DNA of 21,906 nt from a virus. Positions within the stretch are counted from its first letter, which is position 1; each line of letters opens with the position of its first letter. Made by a program: the position numbers and the translations under genes. The notes under the pieces were generated by a model. The model searched no databases. It worked only from the letters and a program-made list of their open reading frames with translations, and was not told the DNA's origin. Below, in pieces: positions 811 through 21,906 of the stretch. The DNA lies in IMG/VR virus record IMGVR_UViG_3300008262_000970, positions 1 through 21,906 of that record. One strand, written 5' to 3'.

Positions 811-1620
811 ATGGCTATTTCTCGTGCACAACTACTGAAGGAACTCCTCCCGGGACTGAACGCTTTGTTTGGTCTTGAGTATGCTCGCTACGGCGAAGAG
901 CATAAAGAGATTTTCGAAACCGAAACCTCTGAGCGTTCCCGCTACAACCACGAAACCATTGCTCTTGGCTTCTCGCTGACGGAAGAGGCAATTGAGGACA
1001 ACCTCTATGACTCCCTGTCCAGCCGGTACACCAAGGCTTTGGCCCGTGCTATGGCTTACACCAAGCAGACTAAGGCTGCTGCAATCCTGAACAACGGCTT
1101 TGACACCAATTATGACGGTGGCGATGGCGTAGAACTGTTCTCGACTGCTCACCCCCTAGTTTCTGGTGGCGTAAACAGCAACGAACCCGCAACTCCTGCC
1201 GACCTGTCTGAGACCTCCCTTGAGGCTGCTGTTATTCAGATCGCTGCTTGGACGGACGAGCGTGGCCTGCTGATCGCTGCAAAGCCGCGTAAATTGGTCG
1301 TTGCTCCTTCCAACATGTTCGTTGCGACTCGTATTCTTGAGACGGAACTGCGCGTTGCTACGGCTGACAACGACATCAACGCTCTGAAGAGCAATGGTTC
1401 GATCCCAGAAGGTTACTGTGTAAACCACTTCTTGACCGATCCTGATGCTTGGTTCTTGACGACTGACGTTCCTAACGGTCTGAAGCACTTCGTTCGTACC
1501 CCGATGGCAACATCGATGGACGGCGACTTCGACACCGGTAACGTTCGTTACAAGGCTCGTGAGCGTTATTCGTTCGGCTGGTCTGATCCGCTAGGCGTCT
1601 TCGGTTCACCGGGCGCTTAA
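811..1620 (+). CDS. Major capsid protein, HK97-fold type
   Basis: The 269-residue product reads like a small HK97-fold major head protein of the kind that needs no long cleaved N-terminal arm. An N-terminal helical part (residues 1-40) is followed by a long helix-rich segment with SLTEEAIEDNLYDSLSSRY and LARAMAYTKQTKAAAILNN. Then comes the characteristic GFDTNYDGGDGVELFSTAHP stretch at about residues 96-115, and later KLVVAPSNM and the C-terminal YSFGWSDPLGVFGS. AAGGAG at 797-802 lies eight bases before the ATG and overlaps the previous stop. A strong terminator follows within 10 bases, consistent with a highly expressed gene closing a transcript. Of the head genes here, this is the most confident assignment. 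Confidence 0.85.
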   Translation: MAISRAQLLKELLPGLNALFGLEYARYGEEHKEIFETETSERSRYNHETIALGFSLTEEAIEDNLYDSLSSRYTKALARAMAYTKQTKAAAILNNGFDTNYDGGDGVELFSTAHPLVSGGVNSNEPATPADLSETSLEAAVIQIAAWTDERGLLIAAKPRKLVVAPSNMFVATRILETELRVATADNDINALKSNGSIPEGYCVNHFLTDPDAWFLTTDVPNGLKHFVRTPMATSMDGDFDTGNVRYKARERYSFGWSDPLGVFGSPGA

Positions 1621-1670: not shown

Positions 1671-1749
1671 ACTAGGATTTTACTCGTACCAACTGACCTA
1701 GCAGACTTAGTAGAGAGGGTACGAGGATGTGCTACTACACGAGGACAAT
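1671..1749 (+). promoter_or_regulatory. Untranslated leader with long inverted repeat
   Basis: CTCGTACC at 1683-1690 is complemented by GGTACGAG at 1718-1725. The 27-base loop contains an inner stem, ACTGA (1692-1696) with TTAGT (1707-1711), including one G-U pair. CTAGG (1672-1676) could instead pair with CCTAG (1697-1701), which excludes the inner stem. The hairpin lies between the terminator and the gene at 1750. It could be an RNA processing site, a stabilising 5' end or part of a promoter region. A candidate TTGTAT (1656-1661) and TTTACT (1679-1684) pair with a 17-base spacer is weak. The structure is seen in the sequence; the function is inference. Confidence 0.5.
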
Positions 1750-2205
1750 ATGGCAACTACTACCTTTTCCGGCCCAGTAAAGGCTGGCACAATCAAAGAT
1801 ACTACCGGTACCACGGTAGGCACCGACGTAGCAAACGTAGGTTTTGTTTTGATGGCTCAATCTGCCTTAATCGACATTATTGGCGCCACTTCAAACAACC
1901 AAGTCGTGGCTACTATCCCTGCAAACTCACAAATTGTTGACGTTATTCTGAACGTCGCAATTGTCAATAACGACACTGGTACAGCCACTGTTGAAGTTGG
2001 AACCTCTTCTGATGCTAATGCGTTTATTCCAAGCACTAGCGTTAAGGCTCTTGCGACCACTCGTGGAACTCTGGATACAGAAGCCACGAACGTCGGAACA
2101 ACAGATTTGCAGGTTCTAGTTGACTTTGCTGCCCAAAACGGTGACGGTACGACTGGTTCAGCAACGGTAACTGTTCTTTATATTCAGAACAACAACTTAG
2201 CGTAA
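1750..2205 (+). CDS. Beta-rich virion structural protein
   Basis: The 151-residue product starts MATTTFSGPVKAGTIKDTTG and is Thr/Val/Ala/Asn-rich with alternating hydrophobic strands, no cysteine and no membrane segment. It looks like a small jelly-roll or beta-sandwich virion protein. The start chosen is the ATG at 1750, with GAGG at 1741-1744. An in-frame GTG at 1729 would add seven residues but lies inside the leader hairpin region and has only a GAGG directly abutting it. It is the first gene after the terminator and leader and is followed by another small structural gene. Specific function unknown; head decoration or fibre are possibilities. Confidence 0.75.
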   Translation: MATTTFSGPVKAGTIKDTTGTTVGTDVANVGFVLMAQSALIDIIGATSNNQVVATIPANSQIVDVILNVAIVNNDTGTATVEVGTSSDANAFIPSTSVKALATTRGTLDTEATNVGTTDLQVLVDFAAQNGDGTTGSATVTVLYIQNNNLA

Positions 2206-2540: not shown

Positions 2541-3278
2541 ATGCAAAATGAAAAAGGTTACACGTTGGCAGGCCGTCAGATTTTCTTTGGCATCCCTGCT
2601 TACGACCACAAAGTTTCACTCAAGCAAGCAATCTCACTTATGCGTTTTGCCCAACAAGCGCCGCAGCATGGGATTGACATTATGGTTGGAAGTATTTGTG
2701 GGTGCTCGGTAGTTTCCCGGGCACGTAATCTTTTAGTTCAGGATTTTTTGGAGTCTAACGCTACAGAGTTGATGTTCATTGATGCGGACATTAACTTCCA
2801 GCCAGAAGACATTATTCGGCTAATGGCATGGATTTCTGAGCCAAATATCGACATTGCTGCCGGTATCCCCTGCGCCAGAAAGACCGAAAAGACCTATATC
2901 GTCAAGTTAGACGAAGATGGGAACGGCGTCACTATGAACGGCATGGGGCTAGTACGCGCGCAACGTGTGGCTACCGCCTTCATGATGATTAAGCGTGAAG
3001 TCATTGAGAAGTTGATTAAAGACAACCCCCAGTGGAATTACTGGGATAACAAGACCGAGCGCACGCTGTCTGCCATTTTTGACTTTGCGGTTAAAGATAA
3101 CTCCTACGTGGGTGAAGACTACCTATTCTGTGACCGCGCCCGTGCGGCAGGTTTCCAAGTCTGGGTAGACCCAACTATTAAGTTGGGGCACATGGGAGTT
3201 CAAGAGTACGAGGGTGATTATGGCAATGAAGCCTTCTACCCACGGCTCGTTAAAGATGGAAAAGTGGCAAATGGCTAA
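2541..3278 (+). CDS. GT-A fold glycosyltransferase-like protein
   Basis: The 245-residue product has the layout of a GT-A (GT2-like) glycosyltransferase. It has a first strand IFFGIPAYD (residues 14-22), a GSICGCSVVSRARNLLVQDFL segment, and a DxD metal/nucleotide-sugar motif in MFIDADINF (D81, D83). YVGEDYLFCDRARAAGF (from about residue 189) resembles the acidic acceptor-side motif of this fold, and H217 in LGHMG may be the third metal ligand. It would transfer a sugar from a nucleotide-sugar donor; the acceptor is unknown and could be a virion protein or host surface glycan. No Shine-Dalgarno is obvious before the ATG, which lies eight bases after the previous stop. The last eight bases overlap the next gene. 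Confidence 0.78.
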   Translation: MQNEKGYTLAGRQIFFGIPAYDHKVSLKQAISLMRFAQQAPQHGIDIMVGSICGCSVVSRARNLLVQDFLESNATELMFIDADINFQPEDIIRLMAWISEPNIDIAAGIPCARKTEKTYIVKLDEDGNGVTMNGMGLVRAQRVATAFMMIKREVIEKLIKDNPQWNYWDNKTERTLSAIFDFAVKDNSYVGEDYLFCDRARAAGFQVWVDPTIKLGHMGVQEYEGDYGNEAFYPRLVKDGKVANG

Positions 3279-3525
3279 GACTCCTGCGTGGCAACGCAAA
3301 GAGGGTAAGAACCCAAAAGGTGGGCTAAATGCTAAGGGAAGGGCATCGTATAACGCTGCTAACCCCGGTAAGCCCGGCTTGAAGGCTCCGCAACCCGAAG
3401 GCGGCTCACGTAAGAAGTCATTCTGTGCCCGCATGACGGGTATGAAGAAGAAATTAACCAGCGCTAAAACCGCTAACGATCCAAACAGCCGTATCAATAA
3501 AAGCCTGCGGGCGTGGAAGTGCTGA
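3271..3525 (+). CDS. Small basic phage protein (DUF6321-like)
   Basis: This 84-residue, strongly basic protein starts MAKTPAWQRKEGKNPKGG. It carries NAKGRASYNAA, then QPEGGSRKKSFCARMTGMKK, and ends SLRAWKC. These blocks match, from memory, a widespread uncharacterised phage family that I associate with DUF6321. Cys 52 and the C-terminal Cys are the only cysteines. The ATG at 3271 overlaps the glycosyltransferase stop by eight bases; GGAAAAG just upstream can serve as ribosome-binding site. An upstream in-frame start at 3214 would overlap that gene by 65 bases and is less likely. Function unknown; it opens the run of small basic genes. Confidence 0.78.
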   Translation: MAKTPAWQRKEGKNPKGGLNAKGRASYNAANPGKPGLKAPQPEGGSRKKSFCARMTGMKKKLTSAKTANDPNSRINKSLRAWKC

Positions 3526-3769: not shown

Positions 3770-3961
3770 ATGATGCTAAAAGACATTCCGGAAGATAATA
3801 CCGGACTTCCTAATCTACCTGAAGCTGTTCGCAACAAAATGGGGTACAAGCGTAGCGGTGGCAAGATCCCTACTATGAAAAAAGGAGGTTCCGTTGGCTC
3901 GGCTTCTAAACGTGCTGATGGAATTGCTATGCGCGGTAAGACTAAAGGACGGATGGTGTAA
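3770..3961 (+). CDS. Small basic protein with ADG-A-GKT C-terminal tag
   Basis: This 63-residue Lys/Gly-rich protein has a mildly acidic N-terminus (MMLKDIPEDNTGLPNLPEAV), a GGKIPTMKKGGSVG linker and a C-terminal tag, SKRADGIAMRGKTKGRMV. The ATG directly abuts the previous TAA, so translation is probably coupled; an ATG follows as the second codon. The tag is almost identical to that of the next gene. It appears to be a separate small gene rather than noise, because the tag is preserved while codons differ. Function unknown. A nucleic-acid-binding or virion-packaged role is suggested only by charge and location. Confidence 0.7.
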   Translation: MMLKDIPEDNTGLPNLPEAVRNKMGYKRSGGKIPTMKKGGSVGSASKRADGIAMRGKTKGRMV

Positions 3962-4541
3962 TCATGGCTGACGATAAAAGAATTGAAGGCCGCACTACTT
4001 ATATAGAAGAGAACATGAAGGATGGGGTTCTTAAAGATCTTGTTATGAAAGTTAGCAAGATGGGTGATGCTGTTGGGTTTACTCAAGAAGACAAGTACAA
4101 GGGTAAAACCAGAGAAGAGGTAGCCAAGAAATCTGCGCCTGAGAAAAAGCGGGCTGGTGGCGCTGTTAAGTCATCCGCCTCTAAGCGAGCCGACGGTGTT
4201 GCTATGCGCGGTAAAACTCGCGGAAGGATGGTGTGATGCCAGCCGTATCAGCCAAGCAAGAAAGGTTTATGCAAGCAGTGGCTAATAACCCAAAGTTTGC
4301 AAAAAAGGTGGGCGTACCAACGTCCGTAGGCAAAGAGTTCACTAAAAAGGAAGGTGGAGTCATGAAAGAGTCAAAGGCAATGATGAAGAAGGAAGTGTCC
4401 TTTATGAAGAAAAAGGGCGCCCCCAAGTCCATGCTCAAGCATGAAATGAAAGAAGCCGGTATGAAGAAGATGCGTGCTGGTGGTCTAGCTGGCGGTCATA
4501 AATCTGCTGATGGCGTTGCTAAAAAAGGCAAAACCAAAGGC
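3899..4541 (+). repeat. Three copies of a C-terminal peptide tag in consecutive genes
   Basis: Copy 1 is 3899-3961, copy 2 is 4174-4236 and a more diverged core copy is 4506-4541 (ADGVAKKGKTKG). Copies 1 and 2 encode 20 residues each and share 18. Comparing their codons, nine differ synonymously and only two change the residue (Ile/Val and Lys/Arg). Copies 1 and 2 end exactly at the stop codon. Copy 3 is followed by a Lys/Met/Gly tail. This is a protein-level repeat maintained by selection rather than a recent DNA duplication. Confidence 0.8.
3964..4236 (+). CDS. Small basic protein with ADG-A-GKT C-terminal tag
   Basis: The 90-residue product has an N-terminal helical part unlike its neighbour (ADDKRIEGRTTYIEENMKDG, then LVMKVSKMGDAVGF). 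A KKRAGGAVK linker leads to the C-terminal tag SKRADGVAMRGKTRGRMV. It differs from the preceding protein everywhere except the tag, so the two look like different proteins carrying the same terminal peptide. The gene starts two bases after the previous stop and its TGA overlaps the next ATG. No enzymatic motif is seen. Confidence 0.7.
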   Translation: MADDKRIEGRTTYIEENMKDGVLKDLVMKVSKMGDAVGFTQEDKYKGKTREEVAKKSAPEKKRAGGAVKSSASKRADGVAMRGKTRGRMV

Positions 4542-4580
4542 AAAGAAGTAAAAATGATGGGCGGCGGGATGTACAAATGA
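4236..4580 (+). CDS. Lys/Met-rich phage protein, third carrier of the tag
   Basis: The 114-residue product begins MPAVSAKQERFMQAVANNP and continues FAKKVGVPTSVGKEF, a block I recognise from many uncultured-phage genomes without a known function. The middle is unusually rich in Lys and Met (KAMMKKEVSFMKKKG, then MKEAGMKKM). The C-terminus has the ADGVAKKGKTKG core followed by KEVKMMGGGMYK. The ATG at 4236 overlaps the previous TGA; the in-frame GTG one codon earlier is a less likely start. Strong positive charge would suit binding DNA or an acidic partner. Function unknown. Confidence 0.72.
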   Translation: MPAVSAKQERFMQAVANNPKFAKKVGVPTSVGKEFTKKEGGVMKESKAMMKKEVSFMKKKGAPKSMLKHEMKEAGMKKMRAGGLAGGHKSADGVAKKGKTKGKEVKMMGGGMYK

Positions 4581-6480: not shown

Positions 6481-6621
6481 ATGGATAAGCCAGTTAAGCA
6501 AATACCTATCGTACCCAATAACAACGGGTACCCAAACAACGTGCCTAACACCCAGACGATGCGTACTCGTGGTACTAAGAACACCACTCGGGGTAACAGC
6601 AATAGCAAAAAGATGGGCTAA
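6481..6621 (+). CDS. 46-residue Asn/Pro-rich protein with basic tail
   Basis: The ATG at 6481 is one base after the previous stop and the frame ends with TAA at 6619-6621, directly before the next ATG. The product starts MDKPVKQIPIVPNNNGYP and ends RTRGTKNTTRGNSNSKKMG. It looks disordered, with a basic Arg/Lys/Thr C-terminus reminiscent of RGTGAATKG-type tails in related small phage proteins. A longer in-frame start at 6430 would overlap the previous gene by 50 bases and is rejected. Function unknown; it may be part of the basic small-protein set. Confidence 0.6.
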   Translation: MDKPVKQIPIVPNNNGYPNNVPNTQTMRTRGTKNTTRGNSNSKKMG

Positions 6622-7317
6622 ATGAACTACACCGAATTAAGCGCCGCAGTTAAGGCTTATTGTGAAAATGACTTCCCACAGGTAGTGGGGTCAGGCGGTC
6701 TTACGTCTGCTGAACAGATAGCGATATTTGTTCAAAATGCTGAGGAGCGGATCTATAACTCTGTCCAGATCCCAGCCATTCGTAAGAATATGACGGGGGC
6801 TACAACTTCCGGCAATAAGTACTTGGCGCTGCCACCGGATTGGCTCTCTACATTCTCCCTAGCGGTGGTGTGTAACGGCCCAACTACCCTCCCAGACGGG
6901 CGGGTTTTTGCTTCCGGGGACTATGTGTACCTGTTGAATAAGGATGTGAACTTCATTCGTGAGGCATATCCAAGTCAGACGGATACGGGTTTACCCATCT
7001 ATTACGCTGTTTTTGACTACAACACGTTCATTCTTGGGCCGATGCCAAACTCAAACTATACGGTTGAGTTGCATTACTTCTACTACCCAACCTCGATTGT
7101 GACTGCTGGTACGTCATGGCTTGGGGATAACTTTGAGTCTATTCTCCTGTACGGCTCTATGCTAGAAGCGGCGTCGTTTATGAAGTCTGATGCCGATGTC
7201 GTCACTATGTATAAAGAGCGCTACAACGAAGCCATGCTGCTTCTCAAGCAGTTGGGCGATGCCAAGGATCGTCAGGATGCCTATCGTTCTGGTCAGGTGA
7301 GGTACCCGGTCAAATGA
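6622..7317 (+). CDS. Head-tail adaptor (tail tubular A / gp4-like)
   Basis: The 231-residue protein begins MNYTELSAAVKAYCENDFP and includes FVQNAEERIYNSVQIPAIRKN, YLALPPDWLSTFSLAVV, YVYLLNKDVNFIREAYPS and FILGPMPNSNYTVELHYFYYP. A C-terminal helical part has GDNFESILLYGSMLEAASFM and YNEAMLLLKQLGDAKDR. This is the layout of phage adaptor proteins that line the portal-tail junction of short-tailed phages (tail tubular A class). It appears complete, unlike the broken adaptor-like gene at 5281-5924. The ATG directly follows the previous stop, and its TGA overlaps the next ATG. Neck role is well supported by family; the exact gp number is not. Confidence 0.78.
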   Translation: MNYTELSAAVKAYCENDFPQVVGSGGLTSAEQIAIFVQNAEERIYNSVQIPAIRKNMTGATTSGNKYLALPPDWLSTFSLAVVCNGPTTLPDGRVFASGDYVYLLNKDVNFIREAYPSQTDTGLPIYYAVFDYNTFILGPMPNSNYTVELHYFYYPTSIVTAGTSWLGDNFESILLYGSMLEAASFMKSDADVVTMYKERYNEAMLLLKQLGDAKDRQDAYRSGQVRYPVK

Positions 7318-11173: not shown

Positions 11174-13702
11174 ATGCCCATTCACGGCTACCCCGGTAAC
11201 GTAATTACCGCCAATCCAACAGCGCCGACATCGAGCGTTGCTTCTGGCGTTTGGACTACTGAGCAGCAGTTGATTGCTAAGGCGGCTGGGAATTGGCCTC
11301 TTTATGTACCGCCTTACCAGATCAGTAGAAGCCTTAGATTCAATAGCGCAGATTCGGCATATCTGGACAGAACTCCCGCAAGCGCCAGCAACCGCAGAAC
11401 TTTTACTTTGAGTGGCTGGGTAAAACGAACTTCACCGGGTTCACTTCTTGAAGTATTTAGTGGCTATACAGGGCTAGGAAACGGAGACTTAAGAACAATC
11501 GCTAGATTTACTGCGGGTAATCTTCTCAGTATAAGTTCAACTCAAATGCAGGTTGCCGGTGACTGGGCTGTAGAAACAACTCAAGTGTTTCGTGACCCTT
11601 CCGCTTGGTATCACATAGTAATTGCTGTTGATACTACACAAGCAACATCAACTAATAGAGTAAAGATGTATGTAAACGGAGCGGAGGTAACAGCATTTTC
11701 ATATGCAGTATATCCATCGTTAAATTACCAAAACGCTATCAACTATAATTTTGTTCATTACATTGGTCTTGGCTACGATTCTGCTAACCCTAATACATTT
11801 ACAAACGGCTACATAACCGAATTTAACTTCATCGACGGTCAAGCCCTAACACCATCCTCATTTGGAGAAACTAATACATCAACAGGGGTGTGGCAGGCTA
11901 AAGCATATTCTGGGTCGTATGGCACTAACGGCTTTTACCTCAACTTCTCAGACAACTCCAACACCACGGCTGCAACCCTTGGTAAGGACTACTCAGGAAA
12001 CGGTAACAACTGGACACCTAATAACTTCTCTGTAACTGCTGGTGTCGGTAACGACAGTCTCGTAGATTCTCCAGCGTCATATAGTCCGGGCGATACTGGT
12101 GTTGGTGGTCAGGTGCGTGGGAATTACTGTACGCTGAATCCTTTATCTACGACTGCTGGTACTTATACTCAAGGCAATCTTAGGTATGTTGGTGCATCCG
12201 CTTTTAGAAGAAGTAACGGAACAATAGCGGTATCTACGGGTAAATGGTATTGGGAGGTTACTTTAGGAAATAACCCATATTCACCAAGAAACAGCGGAAG
12301 TGTTTACAATGCGTTTGGTTTTGGATTGTCAACTGTTTTTAACTCTACAACGGCACCTACATCAACCACAGATGCAATAATTTTACAAGATAGCGGGTAT
12401 TACAAGAATTTTTCTGGAGCAGTCACCGATGCTGGGTCTGCTTTTGTTAGTGGGGATGTTCTTTCAATTGCGGTAGACTTAGACGCTAATACATTTACAT
12501 TTTATAAAAACAACACCCAATTAGTTACTGGAACAATAGGAGGCACTGCTGGGCGTGAATTAGTTCCAATTATCATAAGTGACAGCGCTACTTATGGCGT
12601 GATGGATTGCAACTTCGGTCAACGCCCCTTTGCCTACACCGCCCCCTCTGGCTTTTCTTGCTTGGTAACAACTAACCTACCTGACCCGACTATCGGTGCA
12701 ACTAGCACGACACAGGCTGATGATTACTTTGGCATTGCAACATACGCTGGAACTGGTGGGTCTGGAACAGTAACCACAGGTATTGACATGGCTACTGGCG
12801 GTGGTCTTGTATGGTTCAAAGCAAGAAATGGTGCGTTTGACCACCACTTAATTAACAATGTTGCTGGATATGATAAGTTTTTGTCGTCTAATAAAACAGA
12901 CGTAGAGAACACATACTCGTTTGTAACTAGCGCAACAAGTACTGGTTTGTCGATAAACGGCGGCTCAACAAACGTAAACGGATCTGGATACAACTATGTC
13001 GCATGGAACTGGAAAGCCGGTGGCACAGGCGTAACCAACACCGCTGGACAGATAACATCAACGGTTTCTGCCAACACAACAGCAGGATTTTCGATAGTCA
13101 CTTTTACAACAGATAACACAACAAAAACTGTTGGTCATGGGTTGGGCGTAAAACCTTCTTTAGTGATAGTAAAGTCCAGAAGTGTTGCTGGCAACTGGCT
13201 TGTAATTACTGACATTCTTGGCTCAATGCAATATGGGGTATTAAACAGCACCGCTGCATTTACAAGTATTGGGTATTCAGCGCCGACATCTACTGTTTTC
13301 CAATACAACGACAACAACGGCGTGACACAAGTAGCCTACTGCTTCGCACCCGTGGCTGGCTATAGTGCCTTCGGAAGTTACACGGGCAATGGTAGTGCTG
13401 ACGGGCCTTTTGTGTACACAGGGTTTAGGCCGCGTTGGCTTCTGTTCAAAGATTCCAGTAATGGAACATGGCCTTGGATTATTGTTGATACTGCTCGCAA
13501 CACATACAACGTAATGAATGCTTATTTGAGTCCCAACAACTCAAACGCAGAGGCCACTAACTTTACTGGCAACGCAATTATTGACGCTACGGCTAATGGA
13601 TTTAAGGTTCGCACTAGCGATGCTTACACCAACACGTCTACTAATACTTATATTTACGCCGCTTTCGCCGAATCACCCTTTAAGTACGCTTTAGCCCGAT
13701 AG
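11174..13702 (+). CDS. LamG-SPRY tail fibre, probable receptor-binding protein 1
   Basis: The 842-residue protein has an N-terminal anchor (PGNVITANPTAP, residues 7-18). A LamG/concanavalin-like domain follows at about 48-262 (SRSLRFNSADSAYL, WYHIVIAVDTTQ, FNFIDGQAL, NGFYLNFSD), then a SPRY-like domain at about 335-490 (TGKWYWEV, GDVLSIAVDLDANTFTFYKN, NFGQRPFAYTAPSGF). A large phage-specific C-terminal region (515-842) carries YVAWNWKAGG, TVGHGLGVKPSLVIVK and TYIYAAFAESPF. LamG and SPRY folds bind glycans or proteins, so recognition of the host surface is likely. It is paralogous to the next gene. GGACTGACA precedes the ATG nine bases after the prior stop. Confidence 0.82.
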   Translation: MPIHGYPGNVITANPTAPTSSVASGVWTTEQQLIAKAAGNWPLYVPPYQISRSLRFNSADSAYLDRTPASASNRRTFTLSGWVKRTSPGSLLEVFSGYTGLGNGDLRTIARFTAGNLLSISSTQMQVAGDWAVETTQVFRDPSAWYHIVIAVDTTQATSTNRVKMYVNGAEVTAFSYAVYPSLNYQNAINYNFVHYIGLGYDSANPNTFTNGYITEFNFIDGQALTPSSFGETNTSTGVWQAKAYSGSYGTNGFYLNFSDNSNTTAATLGKDYSGNGNNWTPNNFSVTAGVGNDSLVDSPASYSPGDTGVGGQVRGNYCTLNPLSTTAGTYTQGNLRYVGASAFRRSNGTIAVSTGKWYWEVTLGNNPYSPRNSGSVYNAFGFGLSTVFNSTTAPTSTTDAIILQDSGYYKNFSGAVTDAGSAFVSGDVLSIAVDLDANTFTFYKNNTQLVTGTIGGTAGRELVPIIISDSATYGVMDCNFGQRPFAYTAPSGFSCLVTTNLPDPTIGATSTTQADDYFGIATYAGTGGSGTVTTGIDMATGGGLVWFKARNGAFDHHLINNVAGYDKFLSSNKTDVENTYSFVTSATSTGLSINGGSTNVNGSGYNYVAWNWKAGGTGVTNTAGQITSTVSANTTAGFSIVTFTTDNTTKTVGHGLGVKPSLVIVKSRSVAGNWLVITDILGSMQYGVLNSTAAFTSIGYSAPTSTVFQYNDNNGVTQVAYCFAPVAGYSAFGSYTGNGSADGPFVYTGFRPRWLLFKDSSNGTWPWIIVDTARNTYNVMNAYLSPNNSNAEATNFTGNAIIDATANGFKVRTSDAYTNTSTNTYIYAAFAESPFKYALAR

Positions 13703-13709
13703 GATCGAC

Positions 13710-16208
13710 ATGGACTACCCCGGTAAAGTCATAACTAAAACTCAGGTAACTCCTACCCAGACCAGCGCATCGGGTAACTGGACGCTGGACGATCAAGCCG
13801 CAGCCATCAAGAACAACAACTGGCCTGTAGCGGGAGTGCCAAACCCCATCTCTAAAAGCCTAAGATTCAATAGCGCAGACTCGACCTATCTGAATAGGAC
13901 TCTTACAACGCCAACAAATAACCTTATATGGACTTGGAGTGCATGGGTTAAGCGATGTGACAATGCCAACCCCTATCTGTTTACAACTACAGCAACAGAT
14001 GGTTCTGGTGGATATATTTATTTTGCTTCTGGTACTTTGGTTTATTGGGACGATAGACAAGCAGGTAACGCTACAGTTTTACAAACAAGTGCTGTATACC
14101 GTGACCAATCCGCTTGGTATCACTTTATGGTCGTTACTGATAGAACACAAGCAACAGCCTCAAACCGAGCAAAAATTTATGTAAACGGTAGTCAAGTAAC
14201 TAATTTTAATGCGACTGCATATCCAAATCAAAATGAGGCTTCACAATTTAATTCGGCTATACCACACTATATTACAGCACCCAGTTCTTTTTTTAATGGC
14301 TACATGACCGAAATAAACTTCATAGATGGGCAAGCCTTAGACGCATCATCATTTGGCCTGACCAACCCACAGACAGGTCAATGGATACCTAAGAAGTACA
14401 CAGGAACCTACGGGACTAACGGGTTCTACTTGAACTTCAAGGATGCAACTTCGACCACCACGCTGGGCTATGACTACTCTGGCAATGCTAATAACTGGAC
14501 TACCAACAACTTTAGCGTGACTGCTGGATCAGGCAACGACAGCCTAACCGATGTTCCTACCCCGTGGGTTGCGTATAGCGCCACAGGCGATGTTGGCGGG
14601 GTGATACGGGGGAATTACTGTACTTGGAATCCGTTGCGTAATGACCAAAACGCAGTTCTTAGCAATGGGAACCTAGATTTAAGCACCGCTGGTAGCACAA
14701 GCCGATACGGAACCTATACAACACTGGGTGTTAGTTCTGCAAAATGGTATTGGGAAATTACCGCAGGTTCATTGTCCACTGATGGCTATAACATAGGCAT
14801 TGCTTCTGCAAGCAAAGGCGCAACATCACCACTTGGTTCAGATACTCAAAGTTACATTTATTTGTCTAATGGAGATAAAAGAACCAATGCCACAACCGCT
14901 GCTTATGGTGCAACATATACCGCTGGAGATGTAATTGGTGTTGCGTTAGACCTTGATGCGGGGACGCTCGTATTTTATAAAAACGGCTCAAGTCAAGGAA
15001 CTGCATACTCAAGCATCCCATCAAATACTTGGTTTCCAACTGTTGCTGATGACGCTACTGCAAGCACAACTGGTTCAAGTTTTGTAGCCAACTTCGGTCA
15101 ACGCCCATTTGCGTATACACCCCCCGCTGGATTCCGTTCACTATGTACCACTAACCTACCAGCAACGACTATTGGCTTTGGGCTGACGAATCAGGCTGAT
15201 GATTACTTTAATACTGTAATCTTTACTGGTAATAGCACAAGTGACCGCACCATAACAACGGGGCTACAGTCTGACTTTGTTTGGGCAAAACGCAGGAATG
15301 ATGCCTATAGTCATCTATTGTTTGATGCTATTCGTGGTGCAGGAAGAACATTAAGATCAGACAGCACAAATATAGAATCTAACGATGGTGGATTTTACGT
15401 TCAGCAATTTAATTCAGATAACTATTTGATTGGGGCAACGGATCAGGCGCTTAACCATAGCAGCGGTACCTATGTGTCTTGGGTCTGGAACGCTGGTGGC
15501 TCTAACGCTACTAATACCGCAGGAACCGTTACCTCAACTGTCAGGGCAAACACGACTGCTGGATTTAGCATAGTAACTTGGACTGGTGCTGCCGCTGGCG
15601 ATACTATTGGACATGGCCTTGGTGCAGCCCCTTCTTTAATAATTACTAAAACCCGTACTGATAATACAGCCCAACCTTGGCCTGTTTACCACAGAAGTTT
15701 AGGGCGTGGTAAATATCTTACACTAAATACCACAGCAGCAGAAAACGCAAGTTATTCAACTTATTGGGGCAATAGCGAACCATCATCCACAATTTTTGGA
15801 ACTCTTACGATAGCGCAAGGCGCAAACAATATCGGGAACATGGTTGCCTACTGCTTCGCACCTGTTGCGGGGTATTCTGCGATTGGTTCGTATACTGGTA
15901 ACGGAAGTTCTGATGGCCCGTTTGTTTACTTGGGCTTCCGTCCTGCTTTCCTAATGGTTAAACGCACAGATAGTACTGGAACTTGGGTAATTATTGACTC
16001 AAAAAGAAATACGTACAATCCTGAAAACTTAGAGTTGTATCCGAACACAACTGCTGCTGAAGGTAACGGTGGTACAACTTACATTGAAGATTTCTTATCT
16101 AATGGATTTAAGATTAGACAAACAGATACCACATGGAACGCCTCTGGTGGAACCTACATCTACGCCGCCTTCGCCGAGTCACCCTTTCAATTTGCTAACG
16201 CACGATAA
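13710..16208 (+). CDS. LamG-SPRY tail fibre, probable receptor-binding protein 2
   Basis: This 832-residue paralogue has the same order: a DYPGKVITKTQVTPTQ anchor, then LamG (about 47-245; SKSLRFNSADSTYLNR, SAWYHFMVVTDRTQ, INFIDGQAL). SPRY follows (about 335-470; AKWYWEITAG, GDVIGVALDLDAGTLVFYKN), then the C-terminal region (about 495-832; YVSWVWNAGGSN, GHGLGAAPSLIITK, TYIYAAFAESPF). It is clearly related along its whole length but diverged, most in loops. The two genes are separated by seven bases and AGGATCGAC gives the start signal. Probable role is receptor recognition, either as a heteromer with the first or as an alternative specificity. The segments RFNSADS and QADDYF are conserved at DNA level. 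Confidence 0.82.
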   Translation: MDYPGKVITKTQVTPTQTSASGNWTLDDQAAAIKNNNWPVAGVPNPISKSLRFNSADSTYLNRTLTTPTNNLIWTWSAWVKRCDNANPYLFTTTATDGSGGYIYFASGTLVYWDDRQAGNATVLQTSAVYRDQSAWYHFMVVTDRTQATASNRAKIYVNGSQVTNFNATAYPNQNEASQFNSAIPHYITAPSSFFNGYMTEINFIDGQALDASSFGLTNPQTGQWIPKKYTGTYGTNGFYLNFKDATSTTTLGYDYSGNANNWTTNNFSVTAGSGNDSLTDVPTPWVAYSATGDVGGVIRGNYCTWNPLRNDQNAVLSNGNLDLSTAGSTSRYGTYTTLGVSSAKWYWEITAGSLSTDGYNIGIASASKGATSPLGSDTQSYIYLSNGDKRTNATTAAYGATYTAGDVIGVALDLDAGTLVFYKNGSSQGTAYSSIPSNTWFPTVADDATASTTGSSFVANFGQRPFAYTPPAGFRSLCTTNLPATTIGFGLTNQADDYFNTVIFTGNSTSDRTITTGLQSDFVWAKRRNDAYSHLLFDAIRGAGRTLRSDSTNIESNDGGFYVQQFNSDNYLIGATDQALNHSSGTYVSWVWNAGGSNATNTAGTVTSTVRANTTAGFSIVTWTGAAAGDTIGHGLGAAPSLIITKTRTDNTAQPWPVYHRSLGRGKYLTLNTTAAENASYSTYWGNSEPSSTIFGTLTIAQGANNIGNMVAYCFAPVAGYSAIGSYTGNGSSDGPFVYLGFRPAFLMVKRTDSTGTWVIIDSKRNTYNPENLELYPNTTAAEGNGGTTYIEDFLSNGFKIRQTDTTWNASGGTYIYAAFAESPFQFANAR

Positions 16209-20711: not shown

Positions 20712-21906
20712 CCATCTGTGTTGATAATGATATTCAAAAGACCTTCGTTGCACCTGCCCTACCGGTGCCGCCTGTTGAGTACGACCAAAAGTATGCAACA
20801 GACCTTATTAGGGTTTTGCGGCTGTACTTCAACCAGATTGACAACTTTCAAAATGCCGTAGCAGGCATACTAAATGGAACGGCTTGCGAGGGAAATATGA
20901 CCCCATTACCAATTTCGATAGGCGGCACTAACGTAGATGCTTTTGGGCGTTTGCGTGTGAGCGAACCCTACAGCCTATTTGACAGCCAAAGCCGTTACGC
21001 TGCTGACAATCAATTTAGCACTTCTACATCTGGTACTGGGACATCGACATTTAATACCAATCAGTCCAGCGTTAGTCTGGCTGTGACGGGTGGTGGCGTT
21101 GGGTCTGTGGTACGTCAGTCCTTTCGCAATATGCTGTATCAGCCGGGGAAAAGCCTGTTGGTTCTAGCAACCTTTCAGATGGACAACGGCACTTCTGCCA
21201 ACCTTAATCAAAGTGTTGGGTACTTTAATACCCAAAACGGGCTGTTCTTCCGTCGTACCGGAGGGGTTAATGCGCTCGTATTGCGTTCAAACACTTCTGG
21301 CACGCCAAGTGATGCACGATTTGTTAATCAAGCAGACTGGAATGGCGACAAACTAGACGGTACTGGCACCTCTGGATACACGCTTGACCTGACCCACCCA
21401 CAGATCTTGTGGATGGACTTTGAGTGGCTTGGTGTCGGTTCAGTCCGGTGCGGCTTCATTATTAATGGGCAATACGTCCTTTGTCATACATTTAATACCG
21501 CCAACGTCTTCGGCACGACGGTCTACATGACCACTGCTATATTGCCTATTCGCTACGAAATCACTACTACAACGGCAGCAGTTGCCGCTACGCTCACGCA
21601 GATTTGCTCGTCGGTAATATCCGAAGGAGGCTTTGAGGCCACATCAATTGAGCACGTTGCAAGGCGGACAACGGTGCTTGGCACCATAAACACGGCGGCC
21701 AACTTCCTCCCAGTTGTCTCGATCCGGCTGGCTTCGACGGCTCTGGGCGCGGTGGTGCTTCCAAACCGTATACAGTTTCAGCCGACCACGCTGCAAGACT
21801 ACGAGATTGCGCTGATTAAAAACCCCGTCCTTACGGGAGCCACTTGGGCGGCAACTGTTCCTTCTGATGCCAACGTTGAGTTTGATGTTGCGGCTACGGC
21901 GATTGC
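20708..21906 (+). CDS. Virion or appendage protein, 3' end outside the window
   Basis: An ATGA overlap with the nozzle gene opens a frame that stays open to the right edge (about 399 residues visible). It begins MTICVDNDIQKTFVAPALPV. VEYDQKYATDLIRVLRLYFN (residues 24-43) is an N-terminal helical element I associate with neck- or tail-attached proteins of related phages. DAFGRLRVSEPYSLFDSQ (around 78-95) begins a large beta-rich domain, with SFRNMLYQPGKSLLV and WMDFEWLGVGSVRCGFIING. It is probably a tail-associated structural protein. Catalytic motifs are not visible. The remainder and the stop lie outside. Confidence 0.7.
   Translation, partial: MTICVDNDIQKTFVAPALPVPPVEYDQKYATDLIRVLRLYFNQIDNFQNAVAGILNGTACEGNMTPLPISIGGTNVDAFGRLRVSEPYSLFDSQSRYAADNQFSTSTSGTGTSTFNTNQSSVSLAVTGGGVGSVVRQSFRNMLYQPGKSLLVLATFQMDNGTSANLNQSVGYFNTQNGLFFRRTGGVNALVLRSNTSGTPSDARFVNQADWNGDKLDGTGTSGYTLDLTHPQILWMDFEWLGVGSVRCGFIINGQYVLCHTFNTANVFGTTVYMTTAILPIRYEITTTTAAVAATLTQICSSVISEGGFEATSIEHVARRTTVLGTINTAANFLPVVSIRLASTALGAVVLPNRIQFQPTTLQDYEIALIKNPVLTGATWAATVPSDANVEFDVAATAI

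Follow-up and report, generated by a model that had tools for sequence, protein, structure and literature searches.

Encapsulin cargo-loading peptides are short, C-terminal and carried by unrelated proteins, and they dock inside a shell of the HK97 fold. In phage T4, IPI-III and Alt carry a capsid-targeting sequence (CTS), an N-terminal peptide of about 10 residues on small proteins with divergent mature parts, for which targeting is proven and which is removed proteolytically in the prohead (PMC9026906). The scaffolding protein of P22 has a basic C-terminal peptide (residues 280-296, R293/K296) that is thought to bind the negatively charged N-arm of the coat protein, and fusions to this scaffold bring cargo into the capsid (PMC9962691). 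In the giant phage SPN3US, it has been proposed that head propeptides direct a range of inner head and ejection proteins to the prohead (PMC5694885). Here, we describe a peptide tag on small basic proteins encoded in the capsid-adaptor block of many uncultured phages, which may act as a comparable address label.

The window, i.e., the whole stretch of DNA analysed, is a virus record of 21.9 kb (IMG/VR, IMGVR_UViG_3300008262_000970). Three adjacent genes on its plus strand carry the core [S]ADG[IV]Ax[RK]GKT[KR]G at or near the C-terminus (Table 1), and the pattern is matched three times in the window versus none expected (0/100 shuffles). In genes 1 and 2 the tag forms the last 20 residues; in gene 3 a looser version is followed by 12 further residues (KEVKMMGGGMYK) and is not terminal. 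The conserved part of the window tag reaches upstream into SASKR and a GG-containing linker. Over SASKRADG[IV]AMRGKT[KR]GRMV, copies 1 and 2 differ by nine synonymous codons and two replacements (I/V and K/R; codons read by eye), which reproduces codon by codon the nine silent and two conservative differences counted in a sequence-only reading of this DNA. That reading had also placed the core on three consecutive genes, in two of them at the very C-terminus; this observation is confirmed, and the tag family is larger than it had noted. Relatives of gene 2 in four other loci (L070, L087, L220, L239; 60-82% identity) are all tagged.

Table 1. Features of the window that are discussed in the text.
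Feature	Position	Strand	Remarks
Major capsid protein	811..1620	+	Lineage predicts tag type
Cement protein	1729..2205	+	86% identical to the DSL-LC04 cement protein
DUF6321 protein without tag	3271..3525	+	Some homologues elsewhere add a GG linker and the tag past the same domain end
Tagged gene 1	3770..3961	+	63 aa; body LKDIPEDNTGLPNLPEAVRNKMGYKRSGGK and tag SASKRADGIAMRGKTKGRMV
Tag copy 1 (gene 1)	3899..3961	+	20 residues and stop
Tagged gene 2	3964..4236	+	90 aa; body unrelated to gene 1 body
Tag copy 2 (gene 2)	4174..4236	+	20 residues and stop
Tagged gene 3	4236..4580	+	114 aa; helical N-module MPAVSAKQERFMQAVANNPKFAKKVGVPTSVGKEF, MKESKAMMKKEVSFMKKKGAPKSMLKHEM module, tag and KEVKMMGGGMYK
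Tag copy 3 (gene 3)	4500..4541	+	KSADGVAKKGKTKG, then 12 residues
Small gene ..YPNNVPNTQT.. upstream of adaptor	6481..6621	+	Window version RTRGTKNTTRG..
SU10-type adaptor	6622..7317	+	Downstream border of variable block; lineage predicts tag type

IMG/VR was scanned with one DNA pattern for the tag peptide and one for its Cys form; the counts cover the matches listed only, so the frequencies are no population estimates. Among these matches, the family comprises at least 516 distinct proteins from about 300 loci or more, in line with the remark in the earlier reading that the same kind of tail occurs in other uncultured phages. The consensus of the 516 unique proteins listed is roughly KGGxVxSASKRADG[ICV]Ax[RK]GKT[KR]G[KR][MI][VIC]-stop, with the core D-G-x-A-x-[RK]-G-K-T-[KR]-G usually ending three residues before the stop codon: among the matches listed, exactly three residues and then the stop follow the core in 346 of the 515 tags counted, and the remaining tags mostly continue for 10 or more residues. 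D, G, A, G, T and G stand at 100% by construction, since only sequences with these residues could match the patterns and the regular expression; SASKRA upstream and [KR][MI][VIC]-stop downstream are also kept, though not required by all searches. The tagged proteins listed have a median length of 117 aa, and each tagged locus holds 1 to 6 of them. Stripped of the tag, 478 bodies of at least 30 aa among the matches listed fell into 167 single-linkage BLAST groups, many of them singletons, a grouping that over-splits disordered proteins; 44 groups have two or more members and the largest has 151 (gene 3 type together with low-complexity links). Within 43 families among the matches listed, identity is 0.82 in the tag versus 0.55 in the body, the tag being higher in 40 of the 43, and between unrelated families listed the tag still reaches 0.71. 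The N-terminal parts thus form several families on which the tag stays constant and is conserved above the rest of the protein, as the sequence-only reading had led one to expect.

Among 45 diverse carriers searched against PHROGs, Pfam and PADLOC, no family had more than two matching members at E 0.1, and where two of the 45 hit a PHROG it was one of the gene 3 N-module; no effector or anti-defence function was recognised in the bodies with these resources. Sequence searches of the PDB gave no match for either the tag or the window capsid, and literature searches with the tag letters found no relevant paper. PHROGs, Pfam and the open literature searched apparently contain no description of this portable short linear signal. 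As a separate observation, some bodies (L067, L185, L347, L376) contain a single EF-hand/dockerin-like loop, e.g., FPDLTGDGKVTKADVLKGRGV, which is seen with either of the two tag types described below.

The tagged genes lie in a defined part of the genome. The window phage combines a gpT-like major capsid protein with an SU10-type adaptor, as in DSL-LC04, Pag-Yong1 and the HTVC023P group. In loci ascertained by their capsid gene, all 66 tags are on the capsid strand and follow the major capsid gene at a distance of 1.5-5.7 kb, with no tag upstream of it in 364 kb of such loci. Of these loci, 25 have at least 5.5 kb downstream, and 22 contain a strict tag, two contain variants (L183, L199) and one (L184) contains a second tag. 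All matches to the pattern in five records of 52-67 kb (G011, G012, G020, G021, G032) lie no farther than about 6 kb from the capsid gene, and the order in G011 is terminase, portal, GroES, capsid, tags and adaptor. The window's capsid is found in 30 of 40 tagged records at 77-92% (longest aligned stretch). Other features of the structural genes are noted here for their own sake. The window capsid lacks, at a junction near 939/940, 33 residues (FEEETKLSGFSAAPVKNEGSAIAYDNGQEAWTA) that are present in the close relatives L143 and L296, and this in-frame gap is either a deletion or an assembly fault. The cement protein and the protein at 20780-21886 are 85-86% identical to those of DSL-LC04 and the capsid only 58%, a mosaic structural module. 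Judged by eye, the adjacent long genes at 11174-13702 and 13710-16208 (842 and 832 aa) resemble paralogues, with the motifs SLRFNSADS and NFGQRPFAYT in common.

Among cultured and named relatives, Planktothrix phage Pag-Yong1, whose capsid is 67% identical, encodes, between cement and adaptor, a protein of 308 residues with GRDGCAKRGRTKGRFI at its end, and the corresponding protein of Synechococcus phage MinM2 has the same end (UMO75986.1 and WEV89192.1, respectively). The Pag-Yong1 variant was found by a genome scan after a tblastn search of cultured phages with the tag alone had given no match, a search in which the low-complexity filter may hide so short a query. A scan of genome contigs gave 11 matches, four of which (L124, L126, L130, L131) look like real tags and the rest like chance; these four are metagenome-assembled or uncultured records only. 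No paper was found in a literature search on Pag-Yong1 and MinM2.

The second tag, RGMGAAx[RK]GG (tag B, the first being tag A), was traced from L184, the capsid-ascertained locus without tag A, and from DSL-LC04, a metagenome-assembled lake phage in which tag A was not found. Of 116 occurrences, 87 lie close to the C-terminus, where GG is in nearly all cases followed by 4-6 residues, and 28 are N-terminal, so a C-terminal position is not essential for tag B. Both tags have R..G.A.[RK]G in common at about equal distance to the stop, and tag B lacks GKT. They occur on related bodies: the gene 1 body (LKDIP..LPxxVRNKMGYxxxGG) is joined to tag A in the window, its relatives in L340 and L400 are joined to tag B, and other short modules are likewise common to proteins of both types. 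Homology of the two tags is plausible. The N-terminal form (MAGRGMGAATRGGGAV) was seen in a small-protein family of L315, L326, L382 and about 25 others; in L329, L339 and L416, tandem RG[MG]G[AIV]A[LQ] units (RGMGAALRGGGIAQRGMGVAL) stand near the N-terminus of an ORF of 126-127 aa, as if tag B were one repeat unit. Relatives of the small gene upstream of the adaptor (L112, L086, L209) have RTRGTGAATKG near their end, another RG-G-A-A tag-like end, which is altered in the window.

Each record has one tag type and mixing almost never occurs: both types were found together in one of 377 tagged loci, where the records are fragments and most loci were collected by the tag pattern. On the capsid tree the tag-type labels need 4 changes versus 17 when shuffled, and tag A fills one side apart from three tag B loci. 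This tracking of the capsid lineage could also reflect plain descent without any receptor.

The sequence-only reading took the tag for a sorting or cargo-loading signal, for example one that places small basic proteins into the capsid. The signal itself finds support in a terminal peptide that sits on unrelated bodies, is kept above them, recurs in many phages within the capsid-adaptor block and comes in one type per record; the capsid as its destination is what we infer. We give close to an even chance to the reading that the tag serves as a portable linear signal for docking on a single component of the head or neck, by which small basic proteins would be loaded into the virion. In such a mechanism the tag core D-G-x-A-x-+-G-K-T-+-G would recognise, during prohead assembly, a single component of the phage's own head or neck, the candidate partners being the major capsid, scaffold, portal or adaptor protein and probably not the cement protein. 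Tag type does not follow the cement protein, which is an unlikely partner since it is 86% identical in DSL-LC04, where tag A was not found; each of the three parts of the window capsid that were measured is net acidic, which would permit binding of the basic tag. Via the tag, several small basic and largely disordered proteins (1 to 6 per locus) would enter the virion, where they would accompany the DNA, perhaps also on its way out, and the bodies would change fast under a constant label, as in the T4 internal proteins. A more specific form of the proposal is possible and is held with more reserve: a C-terminal exchangeable capsid label of at least two types, matched to their own capsid or adaptor, that would load fast-changing small modular proteins into the virion for delivery to the host.

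The composition of the tagged proteins would also fit another function, namely that the tag is a disordered basic tail which condenses phage DNA or binds RNA and has no protein receptor. The tag has a median net charge of about +6, with K and R freely interchangeable at three core positions, and the bodies are basic (median +5), poor in Cys and Trp and, for about 82% of them, predicted to be disordered by the charge-hydropathy rule, unlike most other window proteins tested. In AlphaFold models of two carriers, a tagged DUF6321 protein and gene 3, the helical N-terminal parts reach pLDDT values of 62-91 and the tags mostly stay below 50 and contain no helix, the overall confidence being modest; the tag is thus predicted to be disordered in both. 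Moreover, the string GxxxxGKT resembles a phosphate-binding loop. A P-loop/Walker A motif (GIAQRGKT) was nevertheless rejected: the string lies in the last 20 residues, the models have neither a helix nor a strand of at least 3 residues beside it as the strand-helix context of a real P-loop would require, and tag B has no GKT. Charge alone would require neither the fixed spacing nor the retention of D, A and T, though these residues were demanded by the search pattern itself, and the tag types almost never mix within one record. We regard nucleic-acid binding as rather unlikely.

The tag might instead be an assembly peptide of the neck, docking on the portal-adaptor rather than in the head interior, with its carriers as small neck or tail components. 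The SU10 adaptor closes the gene block, and the fit of tag type to the adaptor tree is as clean as that to the capsid tree: over 167 rows the labels need 3 changes versus 34 when shuffled, and two of the three tag B exceptions on the capsid tree group with B adaptors here. However, such a variety of disordered basic bodies, with 1 to 6 of them in each locus, would be odd for defined neck rings, and we think a neck peptide quite improbable. DNA binding and neck docking are both live rivals.

That all carriers are one paralogous family, in which the N-termini diverged past recognition and the tail is the slowest part, would agree with bodies that are mostly disordered and fast-evolving and with the many singletons left by grouping. 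Yet among the loci gathered there are 207 homologues of DUF6321, a separate Pfam domain: 180 finish with the domain (..RAWKC or NC), a GG linker and the strict tag follow it in 20, and six more have variant forms such as EGGAVRGGGCEVRGKTKGKMV (about 26 of 207 tagged). The tag also stands behind the N-module of gene 3 (4236-4343; MPAVSxKQxxFMxAVAxNPxFAKKVGVPxSVGxEF), which is common to phiKZ PHIKZ165.1 and forms the N-terminus of jumbo-phage proteins annotated as virion structural (121Q, PBECO4), labels of other phages that are taken as given, and on the gene 1 body tag A is replaced by tag B. A one-family origin is refuted for the DUF6321, N-module and gene 1 bodies and may hold for some others; as a general account it is very unlikely. 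Tagged and untagged DUF6321 proteins, together with the exchange of tags on the gene 1 body, exclude one continuous domain in all carriers, an outcome that would have overturned the earlier reading. The tag is an independently inherited, mostly C-terminal module and is portable. Relatives of gene 3 are chains of short reusable pieces, among them the gene 1 body. Separately, in several PHROG families with much longer profiles (3477, 727 and 30733), the DUF6321 protein of the window aligns with the C-terminal end.

Finally, the bases at fourfold third positions are identical in 42.1% of comparisons of tags within a locus versus 39.5% between loci; such sites are barely more alike within than between loci, so the peptide is conserved and not the DNA. 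The last core Gly codon is GGA or GGG in 71% of short tags versus 12% of extended tags, and the first ATG of the next gene overlaps or adjoins the tag stop in most cases; a Shine-Dalgarno sequence for the next gene seems to be laid over the last tag codons. An effect at the DNA level, with the 3' ends kept as recombination arms for cassette exchange or as the ribosome-binding site of the next gene, fits this codon bias but is hardly probable and for the core largely refuted, since fourfold sites vary almost as freely within as between loci and extended tags retain the core without the bias, and it could hold for the last codons only.

Should the tag be a head address label, sequence alone would suffice to mark the virion-borne small proteins of a large group of uncultured phages, the tag would provide a 20-residue handle for loading chosen proteins into such heads, and what these phages carry into the host would become directly testable. 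Even without head addressing, it is a clear example of a portable short linear signal in phages.

Compared with the systems described at the outset, the CTS of T4 appears to be the nearest, differing in the end that is used, in length and in processing, and the tag would behave like a capsid-targeting sequence only if it docks as proposed. Both are short terminal peptides on small proteins with unrelated mature parts. The tag, however, is about 20 residues long, glycine-rich, basic and known here from sequence, and it is mostly C-terminal: 346 of 515 tags end three residues past the core, and N-terminal cases occur in tag B only (28 of 116). With the P22 scaffold the tag shares the basic C-terminus, whereas the coat-binding region of P22 is a helix-turn-helix of one scaffold and the tag is a tail common to many proteins and predicted, in two models of modest confidence, to be disordered. 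The SPN3US propeptides, unlike the tag, are mostly long, N-terminal and removed by a protease (PMC5694885). Encapsulins, in turn, are host nanocompartments, and their sequence, shell and genetic context differ from those of the tag.
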